Shown here: in pieces, positions 704 through 57,686 of the stretch | Position numbering within the stretch: position 1 is the stretch's first letter | How the letters are laid out: every line of letters starts with the position of its first letter | Assembly: GCA_022376925.1 (NCBI GenBank) | Contig: JAIOJX010000025.1 | Coordinates: 138,591,301 to 138,655,300, forward strand | Length of the DNA: 64,000 nt | DNA from: Tragulus kanchil | Lineage: Eukaryota > Chordata > Mammalia > Artiodactyla > Tragulidae | Direction: 5' to 3' | Notes under the pieces: model-generated | The model's database searches: none | The model's input: the letters and a program-made list of their open reading frames with translations, nothing else | Told to the model about the DNA's origin: nothing | Translations under genes and position numbers: made by a program

Positions 704-1489
704 AGAGTGACTCTTATCCACTCCTATTGCCAGTTATTGGCTCTTTTCTCTTTTATTTATTTATTTTTTTATATGAGGTAAAGAAAACCACACTAGGGAA
801 AAGAAGCATGTTTTATAGGCTCTAAAATAATGTTTAGAAACCAGACCGGTGGTGTTCCTTGTAAAGAGTGTATTTGCACAACCCTGGGTCCTGGTGCCTT
901 GAGCTCCTCCTAGTTCTAAAGAGAAAATTCCGTCCGAGGGACCACATGAAGCAAAATCTCGCAACTAAAGACCTCCTCGTAAGAGCCTGCCATACCCACT
1001 CCATGGCCCTTCCACACTGACACCCACACACCATTCAGGACATGCACTTGTGCCAGTCTCTGTAATTGTCTTCTTGACTCTTTACTCCAGTTTCTTTTCT
1101 CCAAACCATTTATTTGCCATGTACTTGGGGATTTCTACCTTTTTCTAGAGTAATAGTGAAAGGACCATATATAAATAAGATTGCCCCCTCTCCTGAATGC
1201 AGTAACTGGGAACCGCATGTCAAAGTCTGGCTTTCAACTCTGCCCGTCTCTGCTTCTCATGATTTTGCCCCAGCCAGAAAGTGTGTAACACGGAGAGTGA
1301 GTCCATTCACTCTTCTGCTGCACTGTTGAGCTATAGACTCAGTTATACCAGAACTCTCCTTAAGGACATGTTAGCCATTTGGCCTGGCTGGCTTCCTAGA
1401 GGAAAAAAAAATTTTTTTTTTCTTTTCTAAATTCTGTCTCTGAGATCTCCATTTAGTGCAGTTGTTCTTAACAGGTTCAGACTATCCCA

Positions 1490-1645
1490 GACTCATTCAG
1501 CTCAATCGCTTAAGTCGTATCTGACTCTTTGTGACCCCATGGACTGCAGCTCACCATACTCCTCTGTCCATGGAATTTTCTGGGCAAGAATACTGGAGTG
1601 GGTTGCCATTTCCTTCTCCAAGGCCTACCAGAGATCCTGTGAAAA
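1490..1645 (-). mobile_element. Bov-tA SINE, antisense
   Basis: The sequence reads as the reverse of the Bov-tA body. It carries the 'gaccccatggactgcag' and 'caagaatactggagtgggtt' blocks that are diagnostic of ruminant SINEs. It is truncated and diverged. The duplicate of the region carries a second copy at about 2591-2746. Confidence 0.85.
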
Positions 1646-2590
1646 CAGGGCCAGAGTGTGTATATTCTGGTCAAACATCTTCAGAAAACTTCTCATATTA
1701 TCACAAAGGGTGAGAAACATAAGATACATTGCTTCTAGTGTTAACTAGTTTTTAAAACTCGGACAGGGAGGCTCATTTCACCCAAAGAAGCAAAGGTGAG
1801 ACAAGAAACATAATAAAACAACCAACCCCTCAAGCCAGCCATTTACTATGGGGTATAAGAAACTACTGACATTACATGTCTCTGAAAATCTTTTAAGTCT
1901 CTAGGGAAAGTTAACAGTGAAGACAAGATTTGAAGCCTTTTGTACTGAGGACTTCTTATAGGGAACTTCTTTCTTTACCAAAATGGTACCATATTTACCA
2001 TTATCAGATAATTCATATTTAGAGTCAAATGTTCAGTAGCATTAAAATATCTCAAGAGTTTTAAGTGGCCTTGCTATTACACACATGAGGTTTTTTTTTA
2101 AAGTGGGGGAGGGGCTTGGCCATTTAAAAGGCACATATATTCACTTTTATTTCCTAAATGTGCTTTACATGAAACACAGACCTACAGCAAGCCCACACAT
2201 TGCTAGTACTTACATTTCATGCTGTTGACCTGTTCCTTTCTTTGATTCTAAGTACAAATCCTTTGCCTAGTGCAGCAAAATTTTTTGTAAGAGTCCAATG
2301 CAGTAACTGGGAACCGCATGTCAAAGTCTGGCTTTCAACTCTGCCCGTCTCTGCTTCTCATGATTTTGCCCCAGCCAGAAAGTGTGTAACACGGAGAGTG
2401 AGTCCATTCACTCTTCTGCTGCACTGTTGAGCTATAGACTCAGTTATACCAGAACTCTCCTTAAGGACATGTTAGCCATTTGGCCTGGCTGGCTTCCTAG
2501 AGGAAAAAAAAATTTTTTTTTTCTTTTCTAAATTCTGTCTCTGAGATCTCCATTTAGTGCAGTTGTTCTTAACAGGTTCAGACTATCCCA

Positions 2591-2746
2591 GACTCATTCA
2601 GCTCAATCGCTTAAGTCGTATCTGACTCTTTGCGACCCCATGGACTGCAGCTCACCATACTCCTCTGTCCATGGAATTTTCTGGGCAAGAATACTGGAGT
2701 GGGTTGCCATTTCCTTCTCCAAGGCCTACCAGAGATCCTGTGAAAA
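2591..2746 (-). mobile_element. Bov-tA SINE, second copy inside duplication 1
   Basis: This is the same antisense element as the one near 1.5 kb, shifted by 1101 and differing by a single base (tttgtgacc/tttgcgacc). It reflects the segmental duplication, not a new insertion. Confidence 0.85.
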
Positions 2747-4906
2747 CAGGGCCAGAGTGTGTATATTCTGGTCAAACATCTTCAGAAAACTTCTCATATT
2801 ATCACAAAGGGTGAGAAACATAAGATACATTGCTTCTAGTGTTAACTAGTTTTTAAAACTCGGACAGGGAGGCTCATTTCACCCAAAGAAGCAAAGGTGA
2901 GACAAGAAACATAATAAAACAACCAACCCCTCAAGCCAGCCATTTACTATGGGGTATAAGAAACTACTGACATTACATGTCTCTGAAAATCTTTTAAGTC
3001 TCTAGGGAAAGTTAACAGTGAAGACAAGATTTGAAGCCTTTTGTACTGAGGACTTCTTATAGGGAACTTCTTTCTTTACCAAAATGGTACCATATTTACC
3101 ATTATCAGATAATTCATATTTAGAGTCAAATGTTCAGTAGCATTAAAATATCTCAAGAGTTTTAAGTGGCCTTGCTATTACACACATGAGGTTTTTTTTT
3201 AAAGTGGGGGAGGGGCTTGGCCATTTAAAAGGCACATATATTCACTTTTATTTCCCTAAATGTGCTTTACATGAAACACAGACCTACAGCAAGCCCACAC
3301 ATTGCTAGTACTTACATTTCATGCTGTTGACCTGTTCCCTTTTTCTTTGATTCTGACTTCAGAGTCTAAGTACAAATCCTTTGCCTAGTGCAGCAGGAGA
3401 AGGAGTTACCTCCTTTTTTCCTGTCCCACAAAAAGACATTTTATTAATATTTTATTAGTATGGTTTTCCTTTATTCTTATGCAATAGACAGTGTGCTGTC
3501 ATTCTATCATGTACCTTAAAGAAAGGATGAGTGTGAAGTTATTTACCACATACGAGGCATTTTCTTGCTGGAAACAATGGCTCGGCCTCATGGTAGCAGC
3601 TGGCATGTGTGATGAAGTGGACAGCTTTACTTTTGCAAGTTGCAGTTCTTAGTATATAGAGTGGAGTTTCAGACTGTTAAGAATCAATGGAACGTTAATT
3701 TTTTTATGGCTATGAGACACAATATTCCACTGCATGTTTTTCACCCTGTTCATTTCTAAACCAAGTATGTAGGCATTTGTTAGCTTTGATGATTTCCTCA
3801 CTAATACAACACTTTTTTAAATAGGAATCTTTCCACCTAGAGCCCTAGAATTATATTAATTCTTCTGCATTGACTTTTTCTTTCATCCTGTCAGCTTTGA
3901 ATAATATCACAGTAATGGCAGAGAACAGGTGAAGAAATCAGGTCATTAACAAAGAACGGTAGACAGGTCAACTCTGTACTGACCTACTACCACTGAGCCC
4001 ATACAAAGGAGGAGAAATACCTCAGTTAAAAAATTCCCATCAAAATCTTCAAGAGTATACTGAGGAAAGGACAGTCATAGCACTTACTTCCAACAATGTG
4101 TAAAGGCTACATGTTTAATACTTCATGTAAAATTACTCCAAATTTGCACTAAATACCAATGAAGTGTTATTTTGCTTTAGTTGTGTTGCAGTCTTTTCTG
4201 ATTAGCAAACTATGGGGAAAATTCTGTAAAGAATATAAAATGTCAAAACTTTTGAAAGAAATGAATGATTGCTAGTTAAATACACAAGCTGTTTTTTTTT
4301 TTTTTTAATTTAAACAAACATACACTTCTCCTGGCAAGGTTATAGATGATTAACCTCTGTTCATAAGACTTATATGTACAAAACTAGAGGTTTTTCGTTT
4401 ACTTTTTTTAAAATTTTTCAAGTGCAATTGTTTCTTATACATTAATTACTATTAAATTATCATTTTGGCCAGTTACTAGCAAATTGTAGTATGTATTGTC
4501 TCTTCTTGTGACGTTTCGTTTTAATTGCTTATTTTAAAGCAGAAACATTAGAACTACAAATGTCTTGCAATATTTTTATCAACAGTAAGATGAAGTAGAC
4601 TTAATGAAAATACCTTAGTGTGATTTTAATATTATTTTGAGATTTTGGTTGTATAAAGTTTTAATGTAAAATGTCCATTCTTGAGGGAAAAAGACCTTTC
4701 AATAAAAAATACCCACAAGATCTTCAGCACTGATGGAATTTTTTTCAACCTGAAGTTTTTACTGATTTCAGAGACCATCTATAGAAAGCTCATATTTACA
4801 CAGCTTTTGTTGAGAAAGAAAAACTTCAAGGCATTTTATATGGTACCTTGTTAATTTTTAGTTAAATACTTTTCGAGAAAAATAATGAGTAAGGGACAAA
4901 TAAAAT

Positions 4907-5094
4907 GGGCTTCCCTGTGGCTCAGACAGTAATCTGCCTGCAATTCAGGAGACCCGGGCTTAATCCTTGAGTTGGGAAGATCTCCTGGAGATAGCAGTGG
5001 CCACCCACTCCAGTATTCTTACCTACAGAATTCCATGGACAGAAGAGCCTATTGGGGCATGGGGTCGCCAAGAGTCAAGTGCAACTGCGCGACC
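4907..5094 (+). mobile_element. Bov-tA SINE
   Basis: A tRNA-derived head (gggcttccctgtggctcag) is followed by the BovB-like body ('ctccagtattctt', 'ccatggacagaag') and ends near 'caactgcgcgacccta'. It is full length and diverged. Its duplicate lies at 6001-6190. Confidence 0.9.
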
Positions 5095-6000
5095 CTAACT
5101 CTATCACTTCTATGAGTAGGGGACAAATAAACTATTTATCTGAATCCTAAATTGGAATTGAATGGTCTGTGTCTCAGAAAATGATCCTCGACGTCTTTAC
5201 TCAAAATGTGTAAAGGCTATGAAAATTTTCTCCAAATTTGCACTAAATACCAATGAAGTGTTATTTTGCTTTAGTTGTGTTGCAGTCTTTTCTGATTAGC
5301 AAACTATGGGGAAAATTCTGTAAAGAATATAAAATGTCAAAACTTTTGAAAGAAATGAATGATTGCTAGTTAAATACACAAGCTGTTTTTTTTTTTTTTT
5401 AATTTAAACAAACATACACTTCTCCTGGCAAGGTTATAGATGATTAACCTCTGTTCATAAGACTTATATGTACAAAACTAGAGGTTTTTCGTTTACTTTT
5501 TTTAAAATTTTTCAAGTGCAATTGTTTCTTATACATTAATTACTATTAAATTATCATTTTGGCCAGTTACTAGCAAATTGTAGTATGTATTGTCTCTTCT
5601 TGTGACGTTTCGTTTTAATTGCTTATTTTAAAGCAGAAACATTAGAACTACAAATGTCTTGCAATATTTTTATCAACAGTAAGATGAAGTAGACTTAATG
5701 AAAATACCTTAGTGTGATTTTAATATTATTTTGAGATTTTGGTTGTATAAAGTTTTAATGTAAAATGTCCATTCTTGAGGGAAAAAGACCTTTCAATAAA
5801 AAATACCCACAAGATCTTCAGCACTGATGGAATTTTTTTCAACCTGAAGTTTTTACTGATTTCAGAGACCATCTATAGAAAGCTCATATTTACACAGCTT
5901 TTGTTGAGAAAGAAAAACTTCAAGGCATTTTATATGGTACCTTGTTAATTTTTAGTTAAATACTTTTCGAGAAAAATAATGAGTAAGGGACAAATAAAAT

Positions 6001-6190
6001 GGGCTTCCCTGTGGCTCAGACAGTAATCTGCCTGCAATTCAGGAGACCCGGGCTTAATCCTTGAGTTGGGAAGATCTCCTGGAGATAGCAGTGGCCACCC
6101 ACTCCAGTATTCTTACCTACAGAATTCCATGGACAGAAGAGCCTATTGGGGCATGGGGTCGCCAAGAGTCAAGTGCAACTGAGCGACCCT
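6001..6190 (+). mobile_element. Bov-tA SINE, second copy inside duplication 2
   Basis: This copy is nearly identical to the element near 4.9 kb, shifted by 1094. It arose with the surrounding ~1.1 kb repeat. Confidence 0.9.
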
Positions 6191-6301
6191 AACTCTATCA
6201 CTTCTATGAGTAGGGGACAAATAAAATATTTATCTGAATCCTAAATTGGAATTGAATGGTCTGTGTCTCAGAAAAATGATCCTACGACGTCTTTACTCAA
6301 A

Positions 6302-7530: not shown

Positions 7531-7910
7531 AAATATCCTTGGAAAGAAGACCCACAAGTGGGAGAGTAATTACACTGCAAAGGTTCTCCCAAAGGACTAT
7601 GAGGTCTGAGCTTCATGTCTGGCTCCCCAGCCCAGGGGTCCTGCACCAGGACGATAAGCCCCCAAGAGCATATAGCTTTGAAGGTCAGTGAGGTTTACTT
7701 TCAGGAGGGCTGGGGGAAATAGAGAATTAATCTTAAAGGGCACACATAAAATCACATATGCCCTGGGACTTGACATAAGAGGTAATTTGATAGACGCCTG
7801 GATCAGACCTACCAGCTGATCGTGAGGTCTCCCGAAGAGGAAGGAGGCAGCTGCAGCTCACCCTGGGGACATAGACACTGGCAGAAGCCATTCTTGGGAG
7901 TTCCTTCTAC

Positions 7911-16768: not shown

Positions 16769-19700
16769 CTGGAGGGTGACAGGAGCAAACATAATTCATC
16801 TCATTTCAACAGTTCTGTGGATTAAAGCTTTATGAAATTCTTAAGAAAATGTGAGAGATGTAGGCTACTGAATGGTAACTATACACAGAGAAAACAATGC
16901 TTTCTCCAAAAAGTAGCACCCTCAGGTTAGACCTCTGTCCCAGTGGTAAAATCTAGCACAAACATACAAAACGCCCTCATTATATAAATCACCGATTTGC
17001 GTAATATTATGAAGTAAAGTTAATTTTGAACCTCATTTAAACATTATTACTAATATGTTCTGAGACACTGATTTCTAAGATAAAACTGCACTGATTTTTC
17101 AGTGTATCTTATTAAAAACTGTATCTTACTCCTAATGTAGGAAGAAGGAGGTAGGTAAATAAGCTGAAAAGTTTATGTGTAATAAGTTAAACTAAAACTT
17201 TAAACAAAGAGCTATGAGTCATATGTCTACCCCTGGCTATATACTATTTGCTTATTTCAAAGCTACATAGATTACCCTGTCAGCCAATATTTTAAAACAC
17301 ACAGGAAGAAGAGGCATAAGTCTAAGATAGTGTTTACAAATCCACAGTAACAGAAAATTAAAAGACTGGGTATATTCATGATACATGATTTGTAATCTCA
17401 ATTTTCTTCCTGACTTGGGCAAAATCATTTTAATCTTTCTTTGGTGGATTCAAAAAAGAAAAAAAAAAGGAGTAATAATATTTGCCTTTTCTAACTATTT
17501 AGAAATCTAAAGGTGAGGGTATATTCAAATTACTCTGTAAATAAAAAATATTTATACCAACTAGTATGCCTTTGAGAAAGATAAGTAAAACAGAACTAGA
17601 CATTTTTAACTGTTTTTCAAAGTGAATGAACTTAATAAAAGATTTCACCACAGTATTTCCCTGGTGGCACAGTGGATAAGAATCTGCCTGCCAATGCAGG
17701 GGACACAAGTTCGATCCCTGGTTCAGGAAGATTCCATATGCCGTGGGCAAAAGGAAAAAAAAAAAATCCAGTGTACCACAACTACTGAGCTCAAGTTCTA
17801 TAGGCCTCAAGCTGCAATCAATGAGTCCCTCTGTTGCAACTGCTAAAGCCCATGATCCTACACCCTGCGCTCCACAACAAGAGAAGCCATCACAATGAGA
17901 AGCCTGTAACAAAGAGTAGTCCCTGCTCACAACTAGAGAAAGCCTGTACTCAGCAAGACCGGCACAACCAGAAATTTAAAATTTTTAAAAGTTAAAAAAA
18001 AAAACTATTAAAAAAGAACAATTTGGGCTTCCCTTGGTGGTCCAGTGGACACCGCCTTGCAGTGCAAGGGGCGCCGGTTCGATCCCTGGCCTGGGAAGAT
18101 CCCACGTGCCGCGGAGCGGCTGGACTGATGTGTCCAATTACCGAGCCAGAGCTCTGGGACGCATGCGCCCAGAACCAGCGCTCTGCGACGATAGAGGCCA
18201 CCGTGATGGGAGGCCCACAGGAGCCAAAGAACAAAGACGGATGAAAATAGATAAATGAAAGACCAATAGAAGTGGTCCGCCTGCTCCCCCACTCTCCAAA
18301 CCAACCCCCCCAAAAGAAAATAAATGTTTAAAAAATAAATAAATAAATAAAAAAGAACAATTTCATCACCAGGTAACTGTCACGCAGAATAAAAGAAATT
18401 GCTAGTATATGAGGGATAAAAACAGAATAAAATGCACTCAGGATCAACCCTAGCCATCAAAGAGGGCTAACTTATGTTGGAGCTAGAATACTCTCACATC
18501 CACCAAATAATCCCTCAAATCAAAACAGAGAAGCTGTGTCACAGTCTCTTGTGGGTGAAGAAGTAGAGATTATTATCCCAGCAAAAGATCTAACAAAACT
18601 CAGAAGGACCCTACCCTGCCAACCATAAAGTTGAATGTGGAACCTCCGTACAAAGTAAACAGATTTTGGTTTTCATAGAAAAAAGCATGGATTTACTTCA
18701 ATTTTTACAACCTAAACAGAGGTTATAATCAAGTTGGCTGACAATTAAAACAGAACTAGCTTTCAACACAATGGGTTAAATAATGTTGCTTAAAATTTTA
18801 CTTTAGTTGTCACTATTATGCCTTTGAGAAAGATAAGCGAAACAGAAGTAGACATGTTTACCTGTTCTCCACAGTGAGTAAAACAGAGTAAATTTCCATC
18901 TACGCAGCCAATCAGAATATACTGCAGGCAACACCGTGGAGAAGAAAAGAGTGGTTTTCCACAGGAATGTTTCCACACTCGGTCCCCAGTGGCCTGTCAC
19001 AGGCAAAATGCAAATTCACAACATTTAAATCACTCCACTAATCGATCACTTTTATAAAACAAATTCATAAACCTCCCAGAGGTTACCTCAGAAAACGATG
19101 ACATTATAAATGAAGCCAGTACACATATACACAGCTGTAAAATTAATGAATGCTGTTTATGAGAGCTAAGATAGAAACCTGCAATAAAACCAGGAAAGAA
19201 ATAACTAGCACATAAACTCTATCCCTAGAATGGGCATGAAGTTCTTGACAGGACTGAGAACATTCTGTGAATTAAAAAAACTGATAGGGGCTTCCCCTGG
19301 TGGTCCAGTGGGTAAGGACACCACCTTGCAGTGCAAGAGGCGCCGGTTCGATCCCTGGCCTGGGAAGATCCCACGTGCTGCAGAGTGGCTGGACCGATGT
19401 GTTCAATCACCGAGCCAGAGCTCTGGGGCGCATGTGCCCAGAGCCGGCACTCTGCGACGACAGACACCACCGCGGTGGGAGGCCCACAGGAGCCAAAGAA
19501 CAAAGACGGATGAAAATAGAGAAATGAAAGACCAATAGAAGTGGCCTGCCCACTCCCCTCCCTCCCCAACCCGACCCCCGTCCAAAATAAATAAATAAAT
19601 AAATCTTTAAAAAAAAAAAAAAAAACTGATAAAGGACATACACAGAACTTAGATTTTTCTCATCTCTCGCTAGACTTCATGTGAATCATTTTCATGAATT

Positions 19701-22700
19701 CTGGTTCAGTAATGTATGGACTATATCTAATTGGGATCTACTTCAAATGGTCAGAATTCAAAGCAAAAATAAAAAATATTAAAGAAAAACAGGTAATAAA
19801 TCAATAAATATTATTTTAGGCCTACAGGATTTACAGCCAGTAAAAGTCCTCCCAGTGTAGCAAAATACAAGTGATATGGAGTCAGGTTCAAACAGGGTGA
19901 AGACAAAACAGTTCCTCCTTCACTTCCCACACTTTAGAGGTTATAATCAAGTTGGCTGACAATTAAAACAGAACTAGCTTTCAACACAATGGGTTAAATA
20001 ATGTTGCTTAAAATTTTACTTTAGTTGTCACTATTATGCCTTTGAGAAAGATAAGCGAAACAGAAGTAGACATGTTTACCTGTTCTCCACAGTGAGTAAA
20101 ACAGAGTAAATTTCCATCTACGCAGCCAATCAGAATATACTGCAGGCAACACCGTGGAGAAGAAAAGAGTGGTTTTCCACAGGAATGTTTCCACACTCGG
20201 TCCCCAGTGGCCTGTCACAGGCAAAATGCAAATTCACAACATTTAAATCACTCCACTAATCGATCACTTTTATAAAACAAATTCATAAACCTCCCAGAGG
20301 TTACCTCAGAAAACGATGACATTATAAATGAAGCCAGTACACATATACACAGCTGTAAAATTAATGAATGCTGTTTATGAGAGCTAAGATAGAAACCTGC
20401 AATAAAACCAGGAAAGAAATAACTAGCACATAAACTCTATCCCTAGAATGGGCATGAAGTTCTTGACAGGACTGAGAACATTCTGTGAATTAAAAAAACT
20501 GATAGGGGCTTCCCCTGGTGGTCCAGTGGGTAAGGACACCACCTTGCAGTGCAAGAGGCGCCGGTTCGATCCCTGGCCTGGGAAGATCCCACGTGCTGCA
20601 GAGTGGCTGGACCGATGTGTTCAATCACCGAGCCAGAGCTCTGGGGCGCATGTGCCCAGAGCCGGCACTCTGCGACGACAGACACCACCGCGGTGGGAGG
20701 CCCACAGGAGCCAAAGAACAAAGACGGATGAAAATAGAGAAATGAAAGACCAATAGAAGTGGCCTGCCCACTCCCCTCCCTCCCCAACCCGACCCCCGCC
20801 CAAAATAAATAAATAAATAAATCTTTAAAAAAAAAAAAAAAACTGATAAAGGACATACACAGAACTTAGATTTTTCTCATCTCTCGCTAGACTTCATGTG
20901 AATCATTTTCATGAATTCTGGTTCAGTAATGTATGGACTATATCTAATTGGGATCTACTTCAAATGGTCAGAATTCAAAGCAAAAATAAAAAATATTAAA
21001 GAAAAACAGGTAATAAATCAATAAATATTATTTTAGGCCTACAGGATTTACAGCCAGTAAAAGTCCTCCCAGTGTAGCAAAATACAAGTGATATGGAGTC
21101 AGGTTCAAACAGGGTGAAGACAAAACAGTTCCTCCACATTTCAACTTCCAAACACACTTCTTTTTCTGTAAAAAAAGAAATTTAAAAAAAAGAAGAAAAG
21201 CAAATTAACTGGTTTCTGCTGATGATTAACAAAATCCACATATCCTGTCCTTTCTAATGTTATGTCTATCTAGTTAATATAATCTTTATTTTTACCATAA
21301 AGGTAATAAATATCACTGTGGAGAATTAAGTAGCATAAAAAGGAGACAAAAGGCAATCCCCAGGGGCTTCCCCTGGTGGTCCAGTGGGTAAGGACACCGC
21401 CTTGCAGTGCAAGGGGCGTCAGTTCGATCCCTGGCCTGGGAAGATGCCGCGTGCTGCGGAGCGGCTGGACCGGTGTGTCCAATTACCGAGCCGGAGCTCT
21501 GGAGCGCATGCGCCCAGAGCCAGCGCTCTGCAACCACAGACGTCACCGCGATGGGAGGCCCATAGGAGCCAAAGAACAAAGACGGATGAAAATAGATAAA
21601 TTAAAGACCAATAGAAGTGGCCCACCCGCTGCCCTCCCTCCCCAACCCGACCCCCGCCCAAAAATAAATAAACAAATAAATCTTTAAAAACAAACAAACA
21701 AAAAAGGCAATCCCCAGAGATTACCACTGTTAAGATTTTAGTATTTTCCCTTGTGATCTTTCTGGTAGACACACACACACAGTTTAATATACCTGAATAT
21801 TATAATTATCATATTATAATTCTGAATATTATATACTTTGTATCTAATTTAGTTGACTTATAGAACTTGCTAATATTACATTAATGGATCATATCCTATA
21901 TGAACATAGAATAACTTCTCTACCTTATCACTGAAAATTATTTGCAACTAATTTTTTAACATTATTAACAACTTGGAAGTAGACATTTTGGTGCTTATAT
22001 TTGTCCATGTTTCTGATTACTTTACCATGACAGATTTCTAGAAAAAGAATTTTACTGAATCAAAGGCTATGAAACAGTCACCTATTCAAATTGTCATACT
22101 GTCTTCCTCAAAAGCTTACTTTCCACCATTCTCATCAGCATTTAATGTTACCTTCTAATCTAGTAACATTTGCTTCTCTATCTCAAATTTGAAATTCTCA
22201 TTCCCTTGACTCTTAAACATATGAAATATTCAGATACATTTATTAGCCATTTCTTCTTCAGGGTCCTGTGCATTTATATCCTTTTTTATTTTTCTATCTC
22301 TGCATTTTTCTTATAGACTTGTATTTGCTCTTAACTTCACTTATAAATATAAATGAGTTTTAACTTTGTCATATTTGCTTCAAAAATTCTTCCCAGGGAC
22401 TTCCCTCGTGTTCCAGTGGCTAAGACTCTTGCTCCCAATGCAAGGGGCATGGGTTCAATTCCTGGTCAGGGAACTAGATCCCACATGCCACAACTAAGAC
22501 CCAGTTCGACCAAATAAATAAATTAAATACATTATTAAAAAAAAAAATTCTTCCCAATTTATTTCTTTTTAATTTTACAATTCTTAAATTTTATGTAATT
22601 AGGTCTCACTGATACTTTTGTGATTCTCCTCTATTGTTAAGATGGTAAACTCTAAGTTCTTCATATTTCATAAATGAGTCGATGGGAGGCCCACAGGAGC

Positions 22701-49700: not shown

Positions 49701-51170
49701 GCAGCCAAACAAATGCATGCACACACACACACACACTTAGTCTTCCAGAAAGGTTTGGTCTAAGTATCAACCTCTTTTTCAAAATCTAAGCAAGTATCAA
49801 GGATTGGGATTTCCCTGGCAGTATAATGGTAAGAGTTCCACGGGTTTAATCACTGGTCAGGGAACTAAGACTCCACATGCCACGTCGTCAAAAAAGAAAA
49901 AAGTATCAAGTATTATAAAAGAGGAACAGGGCTTCCCCTGGTGGTCCAGTGGATAGGGACACCGCCTTGCAGTGCAAGGGGCGCCGGTTCAATCCCTGGC
50001 CTGGGAAGATTCCACGTGCCGCAGAGCGGCTGGACCGATGTGTCCAATCACGGAGCTGGAGCTCTGGGGCGCATGCGCCCAGAGCCAGAGCTCTGCGACG
50101 ACAGAGGCCACCGCGATGGGAGGCCCACAGGAGCCAAAGAACAAAGACGGATGAAAACAGAGAAATGAAAGACCGGTGGAAGTGGCCCGCCCGCTCCCCT
50201 CCCTCCCCAACCAGACCCCCGCCCAAAAATGAATAAATAAAAATAAATCTTTTAAAAATAAATAAATAAATAAAAGAGGAACAACTCTGGAAAGAAAGTA
50301 AATTCAAAACAATGCACAATGCATTACTGTGAGGGAAGAAGACAGGTTCAGACCATTGAGCAGTGGTTTTCAATGGAGCATGGCGGGTGAAGGGTGCCTC
50401 CAAGAGACATTTGGCAATGTCCAAAGACAATTTTGGTCGTTCCAATTGGGGGGTGCTACTGGCACCTATTAGGTGAGGACATGGGGTTACTAAACATCTT
50501 ATAATGTACAGTACACTCTTCACAACAAACAATTACCCAACCGAAAATGTCAACAGTGCTAAAACTGAGAAACTTTGCTGAGTTAAGTGAATTTCGCAAT
50601 CAAGATGGGGACTGCACCTCCTTCTATTAAAAAGTAAATGTAACACATTAAAAAGGAGAAAACCTTAAAAGAGTCACACTTACATTAATTAGCTGTTTTT
50701 CAACAAGGATATACTTTAGATTACATTTTTTCATAAAATGAATTGATAATGCTGGTGGTGAATCTGGATCAATAGGCACATAAGCAGCAGGGACTTGGAG
50801 AATTCTAAATAAACAAAGTACAGAGTCAGCAAAGGGTATCTGTTGCAAATAATCTTACTTTAAGATATCCAAAGTTTAGTTCCAAAAAATCTCACCCTAA
50901 AATCCAAGAGGCTAAATTAACTGCAGGATGGCAGTAGAGACCAATTTCCCGAATTCCTTGAAAGTCACAGTGTAACAGCAAAAAATTTGCTAATTCTGAA
51001 GCAGCATTAATCACAGTCTTGTATGTATAGTAAACGGGAGGCTGGTTGTTACATGCATCAAAACACACAGCTATTTTATCCGAATAAAGGGAGGCAGCCT
51101 GATACACCAATTCCTGAAGAGTCATTTCACTGAAGTTTGCCTGAACATCACTGGTAGCAGAGAACTCTAC
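16379..51170 (-). CDS. AASDH: AASDH (beta-alanine-activating enzyme, ACSF4): full gene model from coding exons
   Basis: The gene encodes an NRPS-like enzyme with an AMP-forming adenylation domain, a carrier domain and a PQQ-type beta-propeller. Human AASDH activates beta-alanine in vitro; its physiological product is unsettled. The coding join on the - strand is 51125-50896, 50804-50684, 43702-43383, 39148-38956, 34549-34308, 33958-33852, 33294-33122, 32379-32187, 31569-31454, 29249-28454, 24159-23996, 21165-21043, 20211-20080, 16768-16379. Phases are consistent and the sum is 3300 bases, or 1099 residues plus stop (human about 1098). Duplications 4 and 7 add a second exon 14 (18993-18862) and exon 10 (30517-30402), and truncated copies of exons 13 and 9. 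I left these out as probable assembly artefacts. Every other exon is intact, so the gene looks functional. Confidence 0.93.
16769..17654. other. AASDH intron 14, single-copy part
   Basis: This is AT-rich intronic sequence. I recognise no repeat, exon or RNA gene in it. Confidence 0.5.
17655..17990 (+). mobile_element. CHR-2-type SINE
   Basis: A tRNA-derived head has 'tggcacagtggataagaatc' and a B-box-like 'gttcgatccctgg'. The tail carries the repeated 'gagaagcc' and 'cagcaaga' text of CHR-2. An internal A-rich patch at 17755-17766 is unusual. Confidence 0.85.
18025..18345 (+). mobile_element. Young CHR-like SINE with C-rich tail
   Basis: The element is complete, with a tRNA-like head, 'cgccggttcgatccctgg' B box and C-rich 3' block followed by (aaat)n. 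The 'aaaaaagaacaattt' before it recurs after it (about 18349-18363), so the insertion is discrete. Confidence 0.93.
18862..18993 (-). CDS. AASDH: AASDH exon 14, second identical copy
   Basis: This repeats exon 14 with intact splice sites. If the genome truly carried both, a transcript with both would stay in frame and gain 44 residues of the propeller. The uniform set of similar duplications across the window makes an assembly origin much more likely. Confidence 0.8.
19287..19624 (+). mobile_element. Young CHR-like SINE with C-rich tail
   Basis: The element is complete and flanked by 'aaaaaactgata' on both sides. Its twin in the second duplication arm lies at 20505-20842. Confidence 0.93.
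19826..19918 (-). pseudogene. Truncated copy of AASDH exon 13
   Basis: The donor side of exon 13 is intact, but the sequence stops matching at the duplication junction (19918). The first ~30 bases and the acceptor are missing. It could not be spliced as an internal exon. Confidence 0.85.
20080..20211 (-). CDS. AASDH: AASDH exon 14: propeller blade, copy A
   Basis: The exon encodes [20 protein letters not shown] and onward to CFTHCGEQ in 44 codons, phase 0 at both ends. The acceptor is 'gcctgtgacag' and the donor is 'CAG|gtaaac'. An identical exon lies 1218 bases downstream on the - strand. Confidence 0.88.
20505..20842 (+). mobile_element. Young CHR-like SINE, second copy inside duplication 4
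   Basis: It is shifted 1218 bases from the element near 19.3 kb, with a one-base change in the C-rich block (cccgtcc/cccgccc) and a slightly shorter poly-A. Confidence 0.92.
21043..21165 (-). CDS. AASDH: AASDH exon 13: propeller blade, intact copy
   Basis: The exon encodes [20 protein letters not shown] and onward to GGLLLAVNP in 41 codons, phase 0 at both ends. The acceptor is 'tttttttacag' and the donor is 'CCT|gtaggc'. A truncated copy without the first codons lies at 19826-19918 in the other arm of duplication 4. Confidence 0.92.
21364..21703 (+). mobile_element. Young CHR-like SINE with C-rich tail
   Basis: The element is complete and flanked by 'aaaaggcaatccccag'. The left breakpoint of duplication 5 falls inside it at 21549. 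Confidence 0.93.
21549..23810 (+). repeat. Direct 1131-base tandem duplication 5
   Basis: Bases 21549-22679 recur at 22680-23810 with no filler. The only change seen near the left edge is 'cccatagg' versus 'cccacagg'. The second arm begins with a headless 3' half of the young SINE (22680-22834), which no retrotransposition event would produce. Confidence 0.93.
22395..22545 (+). mobile_element. Short tRNA-derived SINE (CHR type), diverged
   Basis: The head 'gggacttccctcgtgttccag' is followed by 'gggttcaattcctggtcaggg' and ends in (aaat)n. It is repeated at about 23526-23676 by duplication 5. Confidence 0.75.
23996..24159 (-). CDS. AASDH: AASDH exon 12: propeller blade
   Basis: The exon encodes [20 protein letters not shown] and onward to [15 protein letters not shown]. 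The acceptor is 'tttgccaatag' and the donor is 'TAT|gtaaga'. The '[16 protein letters not shown]' pattern repeats the PQQ-like blade motif of exon 11. Confidence 0.94.
24590..24995 (+). mobile_element. Two CHR-type SINEs, one nested in or abutting the other
   Basis: A partial head starts near 24590 ('gggatttccctggcagtc') and is interrupted at about 24680 by a complete element ('gggcttccctggtggtctag') that ends in (aaat)n near 24995. The second contains the long CHR-2 body with 'ccacaactactgagcc'. Confidence 0.8.
25046..25275 (+). mobile_element. BovB-derived repeat (3' part)
   Basis: The text 'ttccaatactttggccac', 'gatgctgggaaagactgaagg' and 'agggaagcctggcgtgctgc' is the 3' end of the ruminant BovB LINE or a Bov-A unit. 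Its duplicate is at about 26144-26373. Confidence 0.88.
26144..26373 (+). mobile_element. BovB-derived repeat, second copy inside duplication 6
   Basis: It is the same element shifted by 1098 and appears identical throughout. Confidence 0.88.
27510..27650 (-). mobile_element. Bov-tA SINE, old and truncated, antisense
   Basis: Diverged blocks 'ttccaggaaagaatatt' and 'gggatcgaatccaagt', then 'tgtctgagccaccagg', read as reverse Bov-tA. Confidence 0.75.
27732..28185 (+). mobile_element. MaLR (MLT1-like) LTR remnant
   Basis: The text 'gagtgtgggccagactta' and an end with 'ctgtgaaataataaatgttt' followed by 'aagccattaagtttgggg' resemble MLT1-type LTRs with their own polyadenylation signal. No internal retroviral genes are present. 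Confidence 0.5.
28454..29249 (-). CDS. AASDH: AASDH exon 11: carrier-protein site and first propeller blades
   Basis: This is the largest exon at 796 bases. The acceptor is 'caatctgtag' and the donor is 'G|gtaagt'. It starts [20 protein letters not shown], followed by SGGDSLKS, whose Ser is the predicted 4'-phosphopantetheine attachment residue of the carrier domain. A less conserved linker follows. The end holds the first beta-propeller repeats: '[20 protein letters not shown]' then '[17 protein letters not shown]'. There is no stop or frameshift. Confidence 0.94.
29935..30078 (-). mobile_element. Short CHR-type SINE, antisense, with long poly-T
   Basis: A T tract (29930-29952) and 'atttatttattt' are followed by the reverse of the head: 'gaccagggatcgaaccc' and 'agccactggaccacgag'. 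Confidence 0.85.
30402..30517 (-). CDS. AASDH: AASDH exon 10, second identical copy
   Basis: This is identical in sequence to the exon at 31454-31569, with intact splice sites. The exon is 116 bases, so splicing both copies into one transcript would shift the frame. It probably exists only because two overlapping contig ends were both kept. Confidence 0.8.
31135..31247 (-). pseudogene. Truncated copy of AASDH exon 9
   Basis: The exon's donor end is present, but matching stops at the junction at 31247, so the N-terminal codons and the acceptor are absent. Confidence 0.85.
31454..31569 (-). CDS. AASDH: AASDH exon 10, copy adjoining intact exon 9
   Basis: The first two bases complete a Gly codon. 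Then [38 protein letters not shown] follows. Its Lys after 'TSHG' is the A10 catalytic lysine. The acceptor is 'tttatattaag' and the donor is 'AAG|gtacaac'. An identical exon sits at 30402-30517 inside the other arm of duplication 7. I used this copy because it lies next to intact exon 9; in an unduplicated genome the two are the same exon. Confidence 0.85.
32187..32379 (-). CDS. AASDH: AASDH exon 9, intact copy
   Basis: The exon encodes [20 protein letters not shown] and onward to SLPFTSHG. The acceptor is 'ctctctcatag' and the donor is 'CATG|gtaaaa'. It ends one residue before the A10 catalytic Lys. The lower part of the exon, 32187-32299, is repeated at about 31135-31247, where the copy is cut off and has no acceptor. 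Confidence 0.93.
32605..32925 (+). mobile_element. Young CHR-like SINE with C-rich tail
   Basis: The element is complete. The 3' block is 'cgcccctctccctccccacc', then (aat)n. Similar flanks 'aaaaaacaactct' and 'aaaaaacaaaccctct' suggest a slightly diverged target-site duplication. Confidence 0.9.
33122..33294 (-). CDS. AASDH: AASDH exon 8: cores A7 and A8
   Basis: The exon encodes [20 protein letters not shown], then [20 protein letters not shown], then [17 protein letters not shown]. 'SGDF' is A7. '[17 protein letters not shown]' is A8, the hinge that turns between the two catalytic conformations. The acceptor is 'tcttgtgaag' and the donor is 'CAG|gtactg'. Confidence 0.93.
33295..33851. other. 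AASDH intron 7
   Basis: This is AT-rich intron with no recognisable repeat. Confidence 0.6.
33852..33958 (-). CDS. AASDH: AASDH exon 7
   Basis: This short exon encodes [20 protein letters not shown] then [15 protein letters not shown]. The acceptor is 'ttttcatag'. The donor reads 'TTTTTAG|gttgtt', a weak match to consensus, but the frame and homology fix it. It matches the human sequence between A5 and A7. Confidence 0.88.
34308..34549 (-). CDS. AASDH: AASDH exon 6: core A5
   Basis: The acceptor is 'tgtatctatag' and the donor is 'AA|gtaagg'. The exon starts [12 protein letters not shown] and ends [10 protein letters not shown], with the first two bases of a Lys codon. '[12 protein letters not shown]' is the A5 motif (YGxTE). 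Confidence 0.93.
34672..34879 (-). mobile_element. Bov-tA SINE, antisense
   Basis: A full-length reverse element. It runs from 'agccactcaagccatgtcc' through 'gatcccatggactgcagcc' to the reverse head 'ccaccagggaagccca'. Confidence 0.92.
35250..35573 (-). mobile_element. Young CHR-like SINE with C-rich tail, antisense
   Basis: The element is complete in reverse: poly-T, G-rich block, body, and 'gaccaccagggaagcc' head. 'aacaaagtacttctt' flanks both ends as a target-site duplication. Confidence 0.94.
35785..35905 (+). mobile_element. Short CHR-type SINE, diverged
   Basis: The head 'ggaatttcctggatgtccag' is followed by 'cagattcaatccctggt' and an (aaat)n tail. Confidence 0.75.
36703..37010 (+). 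mobile_element. CHR-2-type SINE
   Basis: The head 'gacttccctggtgtctcag' is followed by the CHR-2 body with 'ccacaactactgaagtcc' and 'aacaagagaagccactgc', then (aaat)n. Its twin is at about 37815-38120. Confidence 0.88.
37815..38120 (+). mobile_element. CHR-2-type SINE, second copy inside duplication 8
   Basis: This is the same element shifted by about 1112 with one two-base loss. Confidence 0.88.
38956..39148 (-). CDS. AASDH: AASDH exon 5: core A4
   Basis: The acceptor is 'gttttgccttag' and the donor is 'CAG|gtatg'. The exon encodes [20 protein letters not shown], then PSVVEMF and onward to HHRVTVLQ. 'TFDPSVVE' corresponds to A4, whose Asp contacts the amino group of amino-acid substrates in this enzyme class. 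Confidence 0.93.
39676..39795 (+). mobile_element. Short CHR-type SINE
   Basis: The head 'ccttccctggtgtctagtgg' is followed by 'gagttcaatccctggcc'. Its twin is at about 40772-40891. Confidence 0.75.
40244..40360 (+). mobile_element. Short CHR-type SINE, diverged
   Basis: The head 'gaattccctggcagtccag' is followed by 'aggttcaatcccttgttgg'. Its twin is at about 41340-41456. Confidence 0.75.
42138..42340 (-). mobile_element. Bov-tA SINE, antisense, diverged
   Basis: The blocks 'tttagtcgctcagtaatgc', 'ctatggattgtagcccacc' and 'caagaatactggagtgag' identify a reverse Bov-tA. Confidence 0.9.
42341..43382. other. AASDH intron 4, single-copy part
   Basis: No repeat, exon or RNA gene is recognised. 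The sequence is AT-rich to mixed. Confidence 0.5.
43383..43702 (-). CDS. AASDH: AASDH exon 4: P-loop-like core A3
   Basis: The exon runs from [14 protein letters not shown] to NIQHFR. The acceptor is 'catttaacacag' and the donor is 'G|gtaag'. It includes '[15 protein letters not shown]', the Ser/Thr/Gly-rich ATP-binding motif A3. The middle ([20 protein letters not shown]) is a low-complexity charged insert also found in the human protein. Confidence 0.93.
43795..43995 (+). mobile_element. Tigger/MER2-like DNA transposon remnant
   Basis: The element has inverted ends ('cagacctttgaaca' and the reverse of 'tgttcaagggtcgactg') and the internal text 'ttgaactgcatgggtccac'. These fit the non-autonomous pogo-type elements common in mammals. 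The family name is from memory. Confidence 0.6.
44079..44366 (+). mobile_element. CHR-like SINE, older subtype with short tail
   Basis: The head and B box are present. The body has an extra 'gaggcctctgcaatgaga' unit. The 3' end is 'aaaagaggccaaaaatt' instead of the C-rich block. 'aactcatcttta' flanks it on both sides. Confidence 0.9.
44367..45418. other. AASDH intron 3, single-copy part
   Basis: I see no recognisable repeat or exon. A G/T-rich patch lies around 45121-45175. Confidence 0.5.
45419..45629 (-). mobile_element. MER20-like hAT DNA transposon, antisense
   Basis: The text runs from 'cagggtttctcagtctcaac' to 'tgaaaaccactgctc'. Its reverse matches the MER20 pattern with 'atgtctggagatattttg' and 'gctactggcatct'-like text. 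Confidence 0.65.
45690..46660 (+). mobile_element. L1 3' fragment (ORF2 end plus tail)
   Basis: The fragment starts within ORF2 ('caatccagtcaaaaaatggg'), carries '[20 protein letters not shown]' and a 3' UTR, and ends in an A-rich tract near 46660. It is 5'-truncated and inactive. Confidence 0.88.
46661..47660 (+). mobile_element. L1 internal fragment upstream in L1 order from its left neighbour
   Basis: The sequence continues as ORF2 text that precedes the 45690-46660 segment in a normal L1 ('cagtatggtactggcacaaa'). It ends at 'catacagatggctcccccc' near 47660. An antisense SINE interrupts it. It is repeated from 47996 by duplication 10. Confidence 0.8.
46823..49177 (+). repeat. Direct ~1.17 kb tandem duplication 10
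   Basis: Bases 46823-47994 recur at 47996-49177 with a shift of 1173 to 1169. The last ~50 bases of the first arm are a deletion-ridden version of the second arm's 'cacacaattatatatgtat' and following text. Two-base losses also appear at the left of the second arm. Confidence 0.92.
46857..47133 (-). mobile_element. CHR-like SINE, older subtype, antisense
   Basis: It lies in reverse orientation inside the L1, flanked by 'gggtacctta' on both sides. Its duplicate is at about 48028-48303. Confidence 0.9.
49567..49725 (+). mobile_element. Short CHR-type SINE followed by a (CA)n run
   Basis: The head 'gggacttccctggtggttcag' is followed by 'gggttcaatccctggtcaag'. A (CA) microsatellite of about nine units follows at 49718-49736. 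Confidence 0.8.
49808..49905 (+). mobile_element. Short CHR-type SINE, diverged
   Basis: The text 'gggatttccctggcagtata' and 'gtttaatcactggtcaggg' is a decayed tRNA-like head. Confidence 0.65.
49929..50270 (+). mobile_element. Young CHR-like SINE with C-rich tail
   Basis: The element is complete, with 'cgccggttcaatccctgg' as B box and a C-rich block. 'taaaagaggaaca' flanks it on both sides. Confidence 0.94.
50361..50575 (+). mobile_element. MER20-like hAT DNA transposon
   Basis: The element begins 'cagtggttttcaatgg', contains 'gacatttggcaatgtc' and 'ggtgctactggcacct', and ends near 'aaactgagaaactttg'. These are MER20 landmarks, in the opposite orientation to the copy at 45.4 kb. Confidence 0.7.
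50684..50804 (-). CDS. AASDH: AASDH exon 3
   Basis: The acceptor is 'tttatttag' and the donor is 'gtaagtg'. The first base completes a Gly codon, then [20 protein letters not shown] and onward to KQLIN. It carries the 'AAYVPIDP' stretch that corresponds to core motif A2 of adenylation domains. Confidence 0.93.
50896..51170 (-). CDS. AASDH: AASDH exon 2: start codon and N-terminus
   Basis: The exon follows an acceptor 'ttaatacag' at 51171 and has a 45-base 5' UTR. ATG at 51125-51123 has G at -3. It encodes [20 protein letters not shown] and onward for 76 codons plus two bases. The donor is 'GG|gtgag' at 50895. This matches the N-terminus of the human protein closely and forms the first part of the adenylation domain. 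Confidence 0.93.
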
Positions 51171-51206: not shown

Positions 51207-53519
51207 GAGGTCTTGTTGATGGGGGGAGGTTAGAGAAAAAACTCTATGCAATCACTCCTCATAAAAATAACTACATCAAAGACACAGTTAACTGTGAGCT
51301 GTCTATGGTAAACTTGGCTTACATTTTGATATAATCAACCTAACTCCCTGTCAGAACTGGAAGTTTGGAGGGTAATGGTAGGGTGGGGATGAAAGAAGCA
51401 GAAATATAGAATTCTCCAAAACAGACCACAAAGCAAAAAAGAAATCATAAGTAAATCATCACCAAGTAATGCCAAATTTAAAGTACCAATATGCTAGGTT
51501 TGTCTTTACTTTTTTTTTTTCCCAGTTGTTACAGACTAATAAAGTGGCTAAATCCTGTATGGTAACCTTGAAAAAACTAATGTAAGTGAAGTCTGCCTTT
51601 AGAAACTGAATGTAGGTGAAAAAAAAAAAAGAGAGAGAAAATCCTTATATCCAATTTTAGTCCTCTACATAAAAACTGTGTTCATCATCATTATTAATAA
51701 TATATAATACAGTAAGATCACAGCAAATCACTTTTACAATTGCTAAGAAGCTCTTCATACTCTAGCTTGCAATATATATATATATACACACACACACACA
51801 TATATATATTTTCTGTGTGTGTGTGTGTGGGATCTTAGTTCCCCAACCAAGGCGCCCAGAAGTGAGAGCACAGAGTCCTAACTACTGGGCAGCCAGGGAG
51901 CAGCCTCTAATTCGATTTTTAAATTGCCAATAAATTCATTTAAGTTTAGACTCTATAGTATTACAACTTCATAAAATATTGTATCAATACAGTGTTCTGG
52001 GCCTTTTCAATGCTGATTATACAAAAACAAAACGTGAAACAGCATTTCATCAAAAAAAAAAAAAACAAAACGTTAGGGATGACCGAACAACAAAAACCTC
52101 ACAGGTGCTTGTATTTGAACTTATTTCCCCACTGATTCATCCACATCATTTAGTCAACATTAATTAGTGAAAATAAAATATTCCTAAAGAGAACAAAATG
52201 AACCAACAATGGCTGACACCTGTAAGATTTGGAAATACTGATTACTAAGTACAAAACTTTTAAATATAAAATAACTTTAGTACTTGCAGCATTTTTAATA
52301 AGCTTTTCTACAAATACGAGCTCTTTCTGTGACTCGAAAGATAACGTGAATTTTTTAAAAGCCGTTGAGGTCTTGTTGATGGGGAGGTTAGAGAAAAAAC
52401 TCTATGCAATCACTCCTCATAAAAATAACTACATCAAAGACACAGTTAACTGTGAGCTGTCTATGGTAAACTTGGCTTACATTTTGATATAATCAACCTA
52501 ACTCCCTGTCAGAACTGGAAGTTTGGAGGGTAATGGTAGGGTGGGGATGAAAGAAGCAGAAATATAGAATTCTCCAAAACAGACCACAAAGCAAAAAAGA
52601 AATCATAAGTAAATCATCACCAAGTAATGCCAAATTTAAAGTACCAATATGCTAGGTTTGTCTTTACTTTTTTTTTTTCCCAGTTGTTACAGACTAATAA
52701 AGTGGCTAAATCCTGTATGGTAACCTTGAAAAAACTAATGTAAGTGAAGTCTGCCTTTAGAAACTGAATGTAGGTGAAAAAAAAAAAAGAGAGAGAGAGA
52801 AAATCCTTATATCCAATTTTAGTCCTCTACATAAAAACTGTGTTCATCATCATTATTAATAATATATAATACAGTAAGATCACAGCAAATCACTTTTACA
52901 ATTGCTAAGAAGCTCTTCATACTCTAGCTTGCAATATATATATATATACACACACACACACATATATATATTTTCTGTGTGTGTGTGTGGGATCTTAGTT
53001 CCCCAACCAAGGCGCCCAGAAGTGAGAGCACAGAGTCCTAACTACTGGGCAGCCAGGGAGCAGCCTCTAATTCGATTTTTAAATTGCCAATAAATTCATT
53101 TAAGTTTAGACTCTATAGTATTACAACTTCATAAAATATTGTATCAATACAGTGTTCTGGGCCTTTTCAATGCTGATTATACAAAAACAAAACGTGAAAC
53201 AGCATTTCATCAAAAAATGAACAAAACGTTAGGGATGACCGAACAACAAAAACCTCACAGGTGCTTGTATTTGAACTTATTTCCCCACTGATTCATCCAC
53301 ATCATTTAGTCAACATTAATTAGTGAAAATAAAATATTCCTAAAGAGAACAAAATGAACCAACAATGGCTGACACCTGTAAGATTTGGAAATACTGATTA
53401 CTAAGTACAAAACTTTTAAATATAAAATAACTTTAGTACTTGCAGCATTTTTAATAAGCTTTTCTACAAATACGAGCTCTTTCTGTGACTCGAAAGATAA
53501 CGTGAATTTTTTAAAAGCC
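51207..53519 (+). repeat. Direct ~1.16 kb tandem duplication 11
   Basis: Bases 51207-52363 recur at 52367-53519 with a three-base filler. The shift drifts from 1160 to 1156 as G and A runs, an AG repeat and (TG)n lengths differ. It begins 37 bases upstream of AASDH exon 2, in intron 1. Confidence 0.92.
51769..51830. repeat. Compound (TA)n/(CA)n/(TG)n microsatellite
   Basis: Runs of TA, then CA, then TA, and then TG form a near-palindromic dinucleotide cluster. It is repeated near 52934-52990 with a shorter TG run. Confidence 0.85.
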
Positions 53520-54059
53520 ATGTTTATGACAAATTACAACGTTTACCACACATATCTATACTATTAAGATGCATAGATTACTTTTCATTGCAGTTTCCCA
53601 GTTGTTGCTATAAAAGAAGGCAAAATCTACTCTTATTGTCTAAGGTTTTCATTAACTGAATCACAAATACATTTGTCTCACCAGAGAATACCGTACTAAC
53701 TGGAACACTTCTGGGACCACATAAAAAGGAAAAAGAGAAAAAGAAAATATAGTAAAAGATTATATATGTAATGGGATCCTTAAGTTTTAAGATATTTACC
53801 ATTTTGCACCTGCAGAGACTATCTTGAGTCATCAGAGGTCTTAGGGACTCCTCCTAGGTTATTGGTTATTTTAAAGATTGATAAATCACCTAAAAACTTT
53901 ACTTTCCCGTTTCCACCGGCTTCTTAACTTTCATGAAACAAATACGACTAATTACAATGCAGTTTATACCTTCCAACATATTTTTTCAATTGCTTTTCTA
54001 AATCAGGCTATCAAGACGGGGCAAGCTTATTTCCATTTGAAATAAGGAGCGAGGGTCTA

Positions 54060-55272: not shown

Positions 55273-56029
55273 TACTTTGCTGCAAACTGCTGTCAAAGAG
55301 TTGGCCTTCTGGAGCAATGGCATGGTTACAAAATGATCAGGGTTTTGGTTTGGTTTTGGCTAGAAGGACTGAGGAGGTGTCCTGACATCAACAAACGACA
55401 TATGAAAAGGAATAAGGACACAAGGCACTTGTGTCCTTAGATGTTGGTGGCAAGAACAATCCAAGCAAGAGATAACCTCCACTTGCCCATGAGTATATAT
55501 ACCACACATCTTTTATTTTGTGGGATGGGGGAGGTGTCAAACCTGTATCTTTGTTTCTGTATTTGGGAATGACGCCATTATCCACCCAGCCAGCAGGTAG
55601 AGAAACCCTAGATGTTCACCCCAACCCAACTTCTTTCTTACCCTCCTGTATGCAGTTAGATCCCTCTGTCCTCCAGCCCCCAGTCTCTGGACCACTGCCA
55701 TATCAGAATTGCCTGTGGTAATGTTAAAATAACACAGATTTCTGAATCTCCATTCCAAGAAGTTCTGCATTTTCTAGTGAGGGAGGAGCTGACAATCTGC
55801 ATCCCTCCCAGACCCCCACCCTCCTTCATTTTTAAAATACTTAAATCTGCTCTCTTACTTCAGGTCTTGGTCAGCTTGTCCTAAAACCCAGTCTTGTTTT
55901 TCCCAAATAAAACAGCTTTTAGGTTGATAGGTGGTAGCATAAGGGCATAACTCATTCCCAAGTGAACTTCAAATCCTTTTAGTTAACCCTCTTTATCCCT
56001 ACTTGCAGAAGCCAGTTTCTCAGTTTTTT

Positions 56030-56235
56030 TAGGGCCCTAGTGGCTCTGTGTAAGAATTCACCTGCCAGTGCAGGAGATAAGGGTTTGATCCGTAGGTTGG
56101 AAAGATCCCCTGGAGAAGAAAATGGCAACCCACTGCAGTATTCTTGTCTGGGAAATGCCATGGACAGAGGAACCTGCCAGACTATAGTCCATGGGGTCCC
56201 AAAAGAGTTGGTCACGACCTAGTGACTAAAACAAA
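56030..56235 (+). mobile_element. Bov-tA SINE
   Basis: The body has 'gatcccctggagaagaaaa', 'caacccactgcagtattctt' and 'tagtccatggggtccc'. Its twin is at about 57125-57330. Confidence 0.9.
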
Positions 56236-57124
56236 ATGATGTAAATAGAATTGCTTGCTCCCTGCTGCGTTTAGTCTTTAGGTTTTCCAGATCAGCTAAG
56301 CTATTTGCTTTTGATATCAGAATTTTGTTTGTTATCTCTTTTCCTCTATTGGAAAAATCCATTTACTGTCATTTTCAGGAGGCCTAAGAGGAAGCAAATG
56401 TAGGAGACTATATAAGATATCATTTTTACTTGGTAATCTAGAGTGATCATTCCCAAACATACACCAGATCAACCACAGCATTCCCGAGAAGCTTCAGGGT
56501 CTCTGACTGCAGACTCTAGCAAGGCAGGTGAGATAGTTCATTATCTTTCTAGCCTAATCTCTCACAACTGGCCACAGCTTCCTCACCCCATTTAAATCCA
56601 CCCAGCCATGAAAAAAGGGATGGGGAGGTGTCAAACCTGTATCTTTGTTTCTGGATTTGGGAAGGACGCCATTACCCACCCAGCCAGCAGCTAGAGAAAC
56701 CCTAGATGTTCACCCCAACCCAACTTCTTTCTTACCCTCCTGTATGCAGTTAGATCCCTCTGTCCTCCAGCCCCCAGTCTCTGGACCACTGCCATATCAG
56801 AATTGCCTGTGGTAATGTTAAAATAACACAGATTTCTGAATCTCCATTCCAAGAAGTTCTGCATTTTCTAGTGAGGGAGGAGCTGACAATCTGCATCCCT
56901 CCCAGACCCCCACCCTCCTTCATTTTTAAAATACTTAAATCTGCTCTCTTACTTCAGGTCTTGGTCAGCTTTTCCCTAAAACCCAGTCTTGTTTTTCCCA
57001 AATAAAACAGCTTTTAGGTTGATAGGTGGTAGCATAAGGGCATAACTCATTCCCAAGTGAACTTCAAATCCTTTTAGTTAACCCTCTTTATCCCTACTTG
57101 CAGAAGCCAGTTTCTCAGTTTTTT

Positions 57125-57330
57125 TAGGGCCCTAGTGGCTCTGTGTAAGAATTCACCTGCCAGTGCAGGAGATAAGGGTTTGATCCGTAGGTTGGAAAGA
57201 TCCCCTGGAGAAGAAAATGGCAACCCACTGCAGTATTCTTGTCTGGGAAATGCCATGGACAGAGGAACCTGCCAGACTATAGTCCATGGGGTCCCAAAAG
57301 AGTTGGTCACGACCTAGTGACTAAAACAAA
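57125..57330 (+). mobile_element. Bov-tA SINE, second copy inside duplication 12
   Basis: It is the same element shifted by 1095. Confidence 0.9.
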
Positions 57331-57686
57331 ATGATGTAAATAGAATTGCTTGCTCCCTGCTGCGTTTAGTCTTTAGGTTTTCCAGATCAGCTAAGCTATT
57401 TGCTTTTGATATCAGAATTTTGTTTGTTATCTCTTTTCCTCTATTGGAAAAATCCATTTACTGTCATTTTCAGGAGGCCTAAGAGGAAGCAAATGTAGGA
57501 GACTATATAAGATATCATTTTTACTTGGTAATCTAGAGTGATCATTCCCAAACATACACCAGATCAACCACAGCATTCCCGAGAAGCTTCAGGGTCTCTG
57601 ACTGCAGACTCTAGCAAGGCAGGTGAGATAGTTCATTATCTTTCTAGCCTAATCTCTCACAACTGGCCACAGCTTCCTCACCCCAT

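Follow-up and report, generated by a model that had tools for sequence, protein, structure and literature searches.

Near-identical 1.1-kb tandem duplications in a mouse-deer assembly, very probably left by overlapping assembly units that were not merged

The known assembly fault closest to the one described here is the homotype false duplication. In the passages of the Vertebrate Genomes Project report that bear on it (PMC8081667), such duplications lie at contig boundaries, are often as long as a sequencing read and have a gap between the copies. They can be misread as exon duplications, sequencing errors contribute to them, and the falsely duplicated share is given there as less than 4.9% of each assembly. 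A related fault, false exon gain, is defined in PMC9516828, whose abstract traces it to haplotype divergence and, to a minor extent, to sequencing errors, and a passage of PMC9635638 describes gene duplication through failed contig merging. Here we analyze a 64,000-bp stretch of the genome of the mouse-deer Tragulus kanchil (assembly GCA_022376925.1; hereafter the window), which carries twelve direct tandem duplications of about 1.1 kb that we call D1 through D12. Judging from sequence comparisons, we place the probability at about 0.96 that these duplications, and their counterparts elsewhere in the assembly, are spurious copies that arose when overlapping assembled pieces were abutted.

The near identity of the copies is that expected of the homotype kind, in which both derive from one locus: the arm interiors of 44 pairs differ by 11 mismatches and 35 inserted or deleted bases (indel bases) in 31,316 bases. 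Compared with that kind as portrayed in the passages of PMC8081667, however, the duplications have a fixed size of about 1.1 kb, are gapless (the window contains no N) and affect roughly a fifth of the sequence sampled. The class represented by D1 through D12 would be a gapless, fixed-size and far denser variant of the homotype fault, joined before scaffolding. As in the false exon gain outlined in the abstract of PMC9516828, exons are doubled within their own genes, namely AASDH in the window and albumin-family genes on the same scaffold, whereas the cause proposed here is a failed joining of overlapping units. A literature search that included passages of PMC8081667, PMC9516828, PMC7483855 and PMC9635638 yielded no account of the 1.1-kb pattern, and one may exist elsewhere; searches that paired mouse-deer or Tragulus with terms for genome assembly retrieved no paper.

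Twelve duplications in the window and their junctions

The window corresponds to G000:C8:138,591,301-138,655,300, where C8 is one of 32 contigs in an assembly of 3,167,203,957 bases with 16 large scaffolds. An initial annotation had listed twelve direct tandem duplications of nearly uniform size (1.05-1.22 kb) that add up to about 13.5 kb. Using k-mer self-comparison and gapped alignment, we recovered all twelve direct tandem pairs, with second arms that start within about 20 nucleotides of the positions first listed. The main-diagonal spacings for D1 through D12 are 1101, 1094, 1153, 1218, 1131, 1098, 1052, 1112, 1096, 1169, 1158 and 1094 bp, respectively. Both the size range and the total proved accurate, as the spacings lie between 1052 and 1218 bp and their sum is 13,476 bp. 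In every pair the two arms abut, and their cores are identical save for a few mismatches and small indels. A chance origin is out of the question for tandem copies that match exactly or nearly so over 1 kb.

The ends of the arms that meet at a junction are mostly frayed. Specifically, the stretch between the two cores was compared with the sequence that continues copy 2 downstream and also with that which continues copy 1 upstream, and it mostly fits the duplication with bases missing, a few of the fits (for example, those of D7 and D9) being weak. Over the 12 junctions of the window, the copy that ends at the junction lacks 170 bases, has 6 extra ones and shows 13 mismatches, in a total of 652 alignment columns. 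Similar results are obtained for a wider set consisting of the 44 complete duplications among the 54 found, in the window and beyond, within a preset spacing class of 800-1400 bp. In this set, the first 200 nucleotides of copy 2 lack 313 bases relative to copy 1, versus 79 bases the other way and 19 mismatches, and the last 200 nucleotides of copy 1 lack 159 bases relative to copy 2, versus 27 the other way and 5 mismatches. When the positions within 200 nucleotides of a junction are pooled, the junction-end copy lacks 472 bases and the other copy 106, and there are 24 mismatches. At the level of single junctions, base loss is greater in the junction-end copy at 32 of 44, and four of the 44 pairs are fully identical. 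A loss of bases on both sides of a join has no reason in a biological duplication, whereas the end of a consensus built from few noisy long reads is expected to fray in this manner. The frayed junction-side ends point to the ends of assembled pieces.

The individual pairs vary in detail. D1 has copies at 1176-2287 and 2288-3423 (spacing 1101 bp), and over the whole pair copy 1 lacks 35 bases and copy 2 lacks 11. In D2 (4095-5204 and 5205-6300; 1094 bp) the frayed head of copy 2 has 17 bases missing, and D3 follows at 7900-9058 and 9059-10214 (1153-1154 bp). D4 (18718-19935 and 19936-21161; 1217-1218 bp) contains the doubled AASDH exon, D5 (21549-22679 and 22680-23810; 1131 bp) has one mismatch, and the copy 2 head of D6 (24924-26035 and 26036-27133; 1098 bp) is without 14 bases. 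D7 lies at 30198-31252 and 31253-32312 (1052 bp), and D8 at 36409-37530 and 37531-38640 (1110-1118 bp). The junction of D9 (39546-40656 and 40657-41757; 1096 bp) is placed to within about 20 nucleotides, at 40656 or 40672 by two fits. D10 (46823-47995 and 47996-49178; 1169-1173 bp) lacks 14 bases in the copy 1 tail, and the interior differences of D11 (51207-52366 and 52367-53524; 1156-1162 bp) fall in A-rich, AG and TG repeats. Finally, the junction of D12 (55521-56608 and 56609-57703; 1094-1095 bp) is placed to within about 10 nucleotides, at 56608 or 56616 by two fits.

The breakpoints had been said to fall in unrelated kinds of sequence, including the interiors of short interspersed elements (SINEs) and exons. 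Two points bearing on this were checked. The outer end of D5 at 21549 indeed lies within a SINE-like copy (21364-21663), and in D4 a coding exon sits inside both arms.

Apart from the twelve pairs, the window's direct repeats of 300 bp or more are dispersed, and comprise a SINE-like family with seven copies and a few weaker pairs. Members of this family are about 300 bp long, have a tRNA-like end and are 80-91% alike to the reference copy. They are located at 10729-11028, 18019-18318, 19288-19587, 21364-21663, 32604-32903 and 49929-50228 and, as judged by eye, near 58300-58660. By visual inspection, we take this SINE to be of the cetartiodactyl tRNA type, unlike the common bovid kinds. A 69-bp unit is also present in two tandem copies with 87% matches at 63601-63739. 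An Rfam search of the window at gathering scores gave no match.

Spread over the assembly and doubled exons

The extent of the phenomenon is best seen in sequence sampled far from the window. Of the first 20 contigs, ten were long enough for a 10-kb stretch to be taken at 30.0 Mb. All ten large-scaffold stretches carry duplications, at a density of 23 per 100 kb (including those cut by the end of a stretch), and none of the ten contains an N. Of the 100,000 sampled bases, 21,656 (about 21.7%) belong to second arms, with a range of 8 to 34% per stretch. Both 10-kb flanks of the window (L015 and L016) and stretches of C14, C21 and C32 carry duplications as well. If the ten stretches are typical, then extrapolation from these 100 kb indicates that about 0.7 Gb of the assembly is redundant and that the true genome size is about 2.5 Gb. 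C14, C16 and C25 have round sizes of 200,000, 242,000 and 225,000 bases, which suggests that they are pieces cut by a Hi-C scaffolder.

The spacings are nearly uniform across the samples. Among the 54 duplications of the 800-1400 bp class, which were collected from non-satellite samples, 53 have spacings of 1052-1218 bp and one has a spacing of 942 bp (mean 1111, standard deviation (SD) 42). These spacing counts, like the junction counts, leave out the satellite-like stretch L012 (C9), L001, which lies inside the window, and L021-L029, which are 100 bases each; L017 (C22) is excluded from the counts of 54 duplications and 44 pairs and included in the following one. A scan of the window, its flanks and the sampled stretches (234,001 bases) with no spacing limit gave 58 near-identical pairs whose arms reach 250 bp or more, of which 52 are spaced at 900-1300 bp, five at 2175-2294 bp and one at 515 bp. 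The satellite-like array of L012 (G000:C9:500001-510000) occupies roughly positions 1-5700, with repeats about 333-358 bp apart or at higher multiples of that distance.

The pairs of 515 bp and 2.2 kb fall outside the preset class. Six pairs of about 2.2 kb appear in the spacing scan, not counting two SINE matches in the window, and each such pair means that three successive units contain one common stretch. Triple occurrence of one stretch is seen in six places, three of them in the albumin stretch and one each in L007, L011 and L018; in the four places where both junctions were mapped, these are 1.84-1.96 kb apart. More generally, the distance between successive junctions ranges from 1.85 to 10.9 kb, with a median of 3.3 kb (n=30). 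The 515-bp pair, a near-identical tandem pair to the right of the window (L015:4263-5338, on C8), could be a failed overlap of smaller size or a genuine duplication.

Coding exons are among the sequences doubled. AASDH (ACSF4, beta-alanine-activating enzyme) is encoded in the window, on the minus strand. Pfam matches occur in three reading frames of the window. PF13570 passes its cut-off in one of them, with 165.2 bits, and falls below it in a second; PF00550 passes its cut-off, and PF00501 narrowly misses the one set for it. A beta-propeller exon of this gene lies in the first arm of D4 (18862..18993, minus strand), with ends placed by eye at AG/GT and a length of 132 nucleotides, a multiple of three. 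An identical exon lies in the second arm (20080..20211, minus strand), where it constitutes a false exon gain. The two copies, 1218 bp apart, each match profile positions 144-228, with scores of 45.8 and 46 bits that, taken alone, are below the family cut-off. Because PF13570 is matched at two further places of the genome, both in C23, and 10 of 14 control genomes also have a match (above the cut-off in four), the name AASDH rests on the Pfam family name together with the run of matches in the window, only one of which exceeds the cut-off.

A second example is provided by albumin-family genes on the same scaffold, which form groups at 157.01-157.18 Mb and 155.23-155.24 Mb. They give 51 exon-level matches, including 19 pairs that are 900-1300 bp apart. 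Eleven of the 19 pairs score identically, at distances of 1020-1124 bp; only these were counted as doubled exons, and the other eight were left out. Three of the 11 doubled exons are within the 20 kb of sequence examined, and all three are in duplications. Two albumin exons are closest to the PDB chains 9q8u, 5ori, 4luf, 8wdd and 3v03, and are not identical to them where alignments are shown. The entries 4luf, 5ori and 3v03 are sheep, goat and cow albumin, respectively, in keeping with a ruminant source. The 16 large scaffolds, set beside a 2n of 32, and the type of the SINE would likewise suit a basal ruminant such as a mouse-deer.

Proposed origin and competing explanations

The initial annotation had proposed that overlapping ends of assembled pieces were placed side by side instead of being merged, and this proposal is strengthened by the spread over scaffolds, the frayed junction ends, the stretches that occur three times and the doubled exons. 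We extend that interpretation in three respects: the fault runs through the sampled scaffolds, it doubles exons, and it leaves a junction signature that can be read without sequencing reads. The absence of an N gap between the pieces makes them look like layout or consensus units rather than ordinary scaffolded contigs.

The following series of events could yield this pattern. The assembler would have written each chromosome as consecutive layout units, with 1.85-10.9 kb between junctions, and each unit would have been given a separate consensus from reads that were presumably noisy and long. Neighbouring units would overlap by about 1.1 kb by design, with alignment and merging of the overlap intended. 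Where merging failed or was skipped, as it would have been at many boundaries, the units would be written in series and the overlap would appear twice. In such a scheme, the unit may correspond to an edge of the assembler's graph and the overlap to a node.

One family of programs has the appropriate dimensions. The assembler wtdbg2 divides sequence into bins of 256 bp, uses nodes of four bins (1024 bp) and lays out units from node to node. Its consensus program aligns adjacent units over the node they share and expects an overlap of about one node. As proposed for the pieces seen here, the units of this design are called separately from noisy reads, and the overlap of about one node (1024 bp) is near the observed 1.05-1.22 kb, to which the single spacing of 942 bp stands in contrast, as it is below the node size. 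With reads that lose bases, a node of 1024 read bases would stand for about 1.1 kb of genome, in keeping with the observed sizes. The roughly fixed size of 1.1 kb most likely reflects a node common to adjacent units, and the chances are slightly better than even that a wtdbg-like program was the source. The same anatomy is compatible with any procedure that abuts independently called pieces with about 1.1 kb in common, such as gap filling, the merging of assemblies or the scripted joining of graph segments whose link overlaps are left untrimmed; a failed merge at one of these steps has somewhat less than an even chance of being the cause, and the copies would still be spurious. A node-based layout fits better than gap filling with an SD of 42 bp over ten scaffolds, with junctions as little as 1.85 kb apart and with stretches shared by three units.

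Further explanations were considered. A heterotype false duplication, in which the two haplotypes of a diploid individual are left side by side, draws some support from the 11 interior mismatches noted above, given that some pairs of units may derive from different haplotypes. Nevertheless, this amounts to an interior mismatch rate of 0.035%, four of 44 pairs are identical, the missing bases are concentrated at the junction ends, and haplotype divergence would not fix the size at 1.1 kb, all of which makes this explanation very unlikely. Real tandem duplication by some novel process with a fixed 1.1-kb step has in its favor only that the sequence itself presents direct, near-identical tandem copies. 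Against it stand a density of 23 per 100 kb, the presence of duplications in every one of ten sampled large scaffolds, an almost complete lack of divergence, the loss of bases on both sides of the junction, and the doubling of coding exons in AASDH and the albumin family. Real tandem segmental duplications would be confined to certain loci and varied in length and divergence, whereas these are uniform in size and present in all ten stretches. We consider the chance of such a process to be negligible. A transposon or target-site mechanism was also rejected, as all ten large-scaffold samples contain the duplications and no common sequence was noticed among them (arms of different duplications were not aligned).

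Several observations weigh against the abutting of unmerged units, or against the specific form proposed for it. The evidence consists of the assembled sequence of one assembly. The single 942-bp spacing (L014:4224-6116, G000:C21) is below 1024, and a 5-kb stretch of the small scaffold C22 (L017) has no duplication. Fraying is not universal, in that five of the 44 complete pairs have at most one differing base, and the polarity of base loss is opposite (fewer bases missing from the junction-end copy) at six of 44 junctions and tied at another six. Moreover, the junctions of the 44 pairs were placed where the alignment score is highest under the constraint that the ends align, such that the end counts are approximate. 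Small base losses are also present in the 942-bp pair.

Consequences for this and similar assemblies

D1 through D12 are not a biological feature. What seemed a striking biological puzzle is dissolved, and is replaced by a warning about this assembly: its gene models, exon counts, intron lengths, repeat statistics, copy-number calls and genome size are unreliable until the copies are collapsed. The signature itself, direct repeats with a spacing of 0.9-1.3 kb and base loss at the junction, offers a read-free detector for use with other assemblies.

We think it rather more probable than not that an assembly-wide error, set by node length, doubles about a fifth of this genome (about 0.7 Gb) together with a sizeable share of its exons, and that assemblies made with the same pipeline may share it. 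If this is true of those assemblies, then exon gains, intron lengths and genome sizes drawn from them would be wrong.

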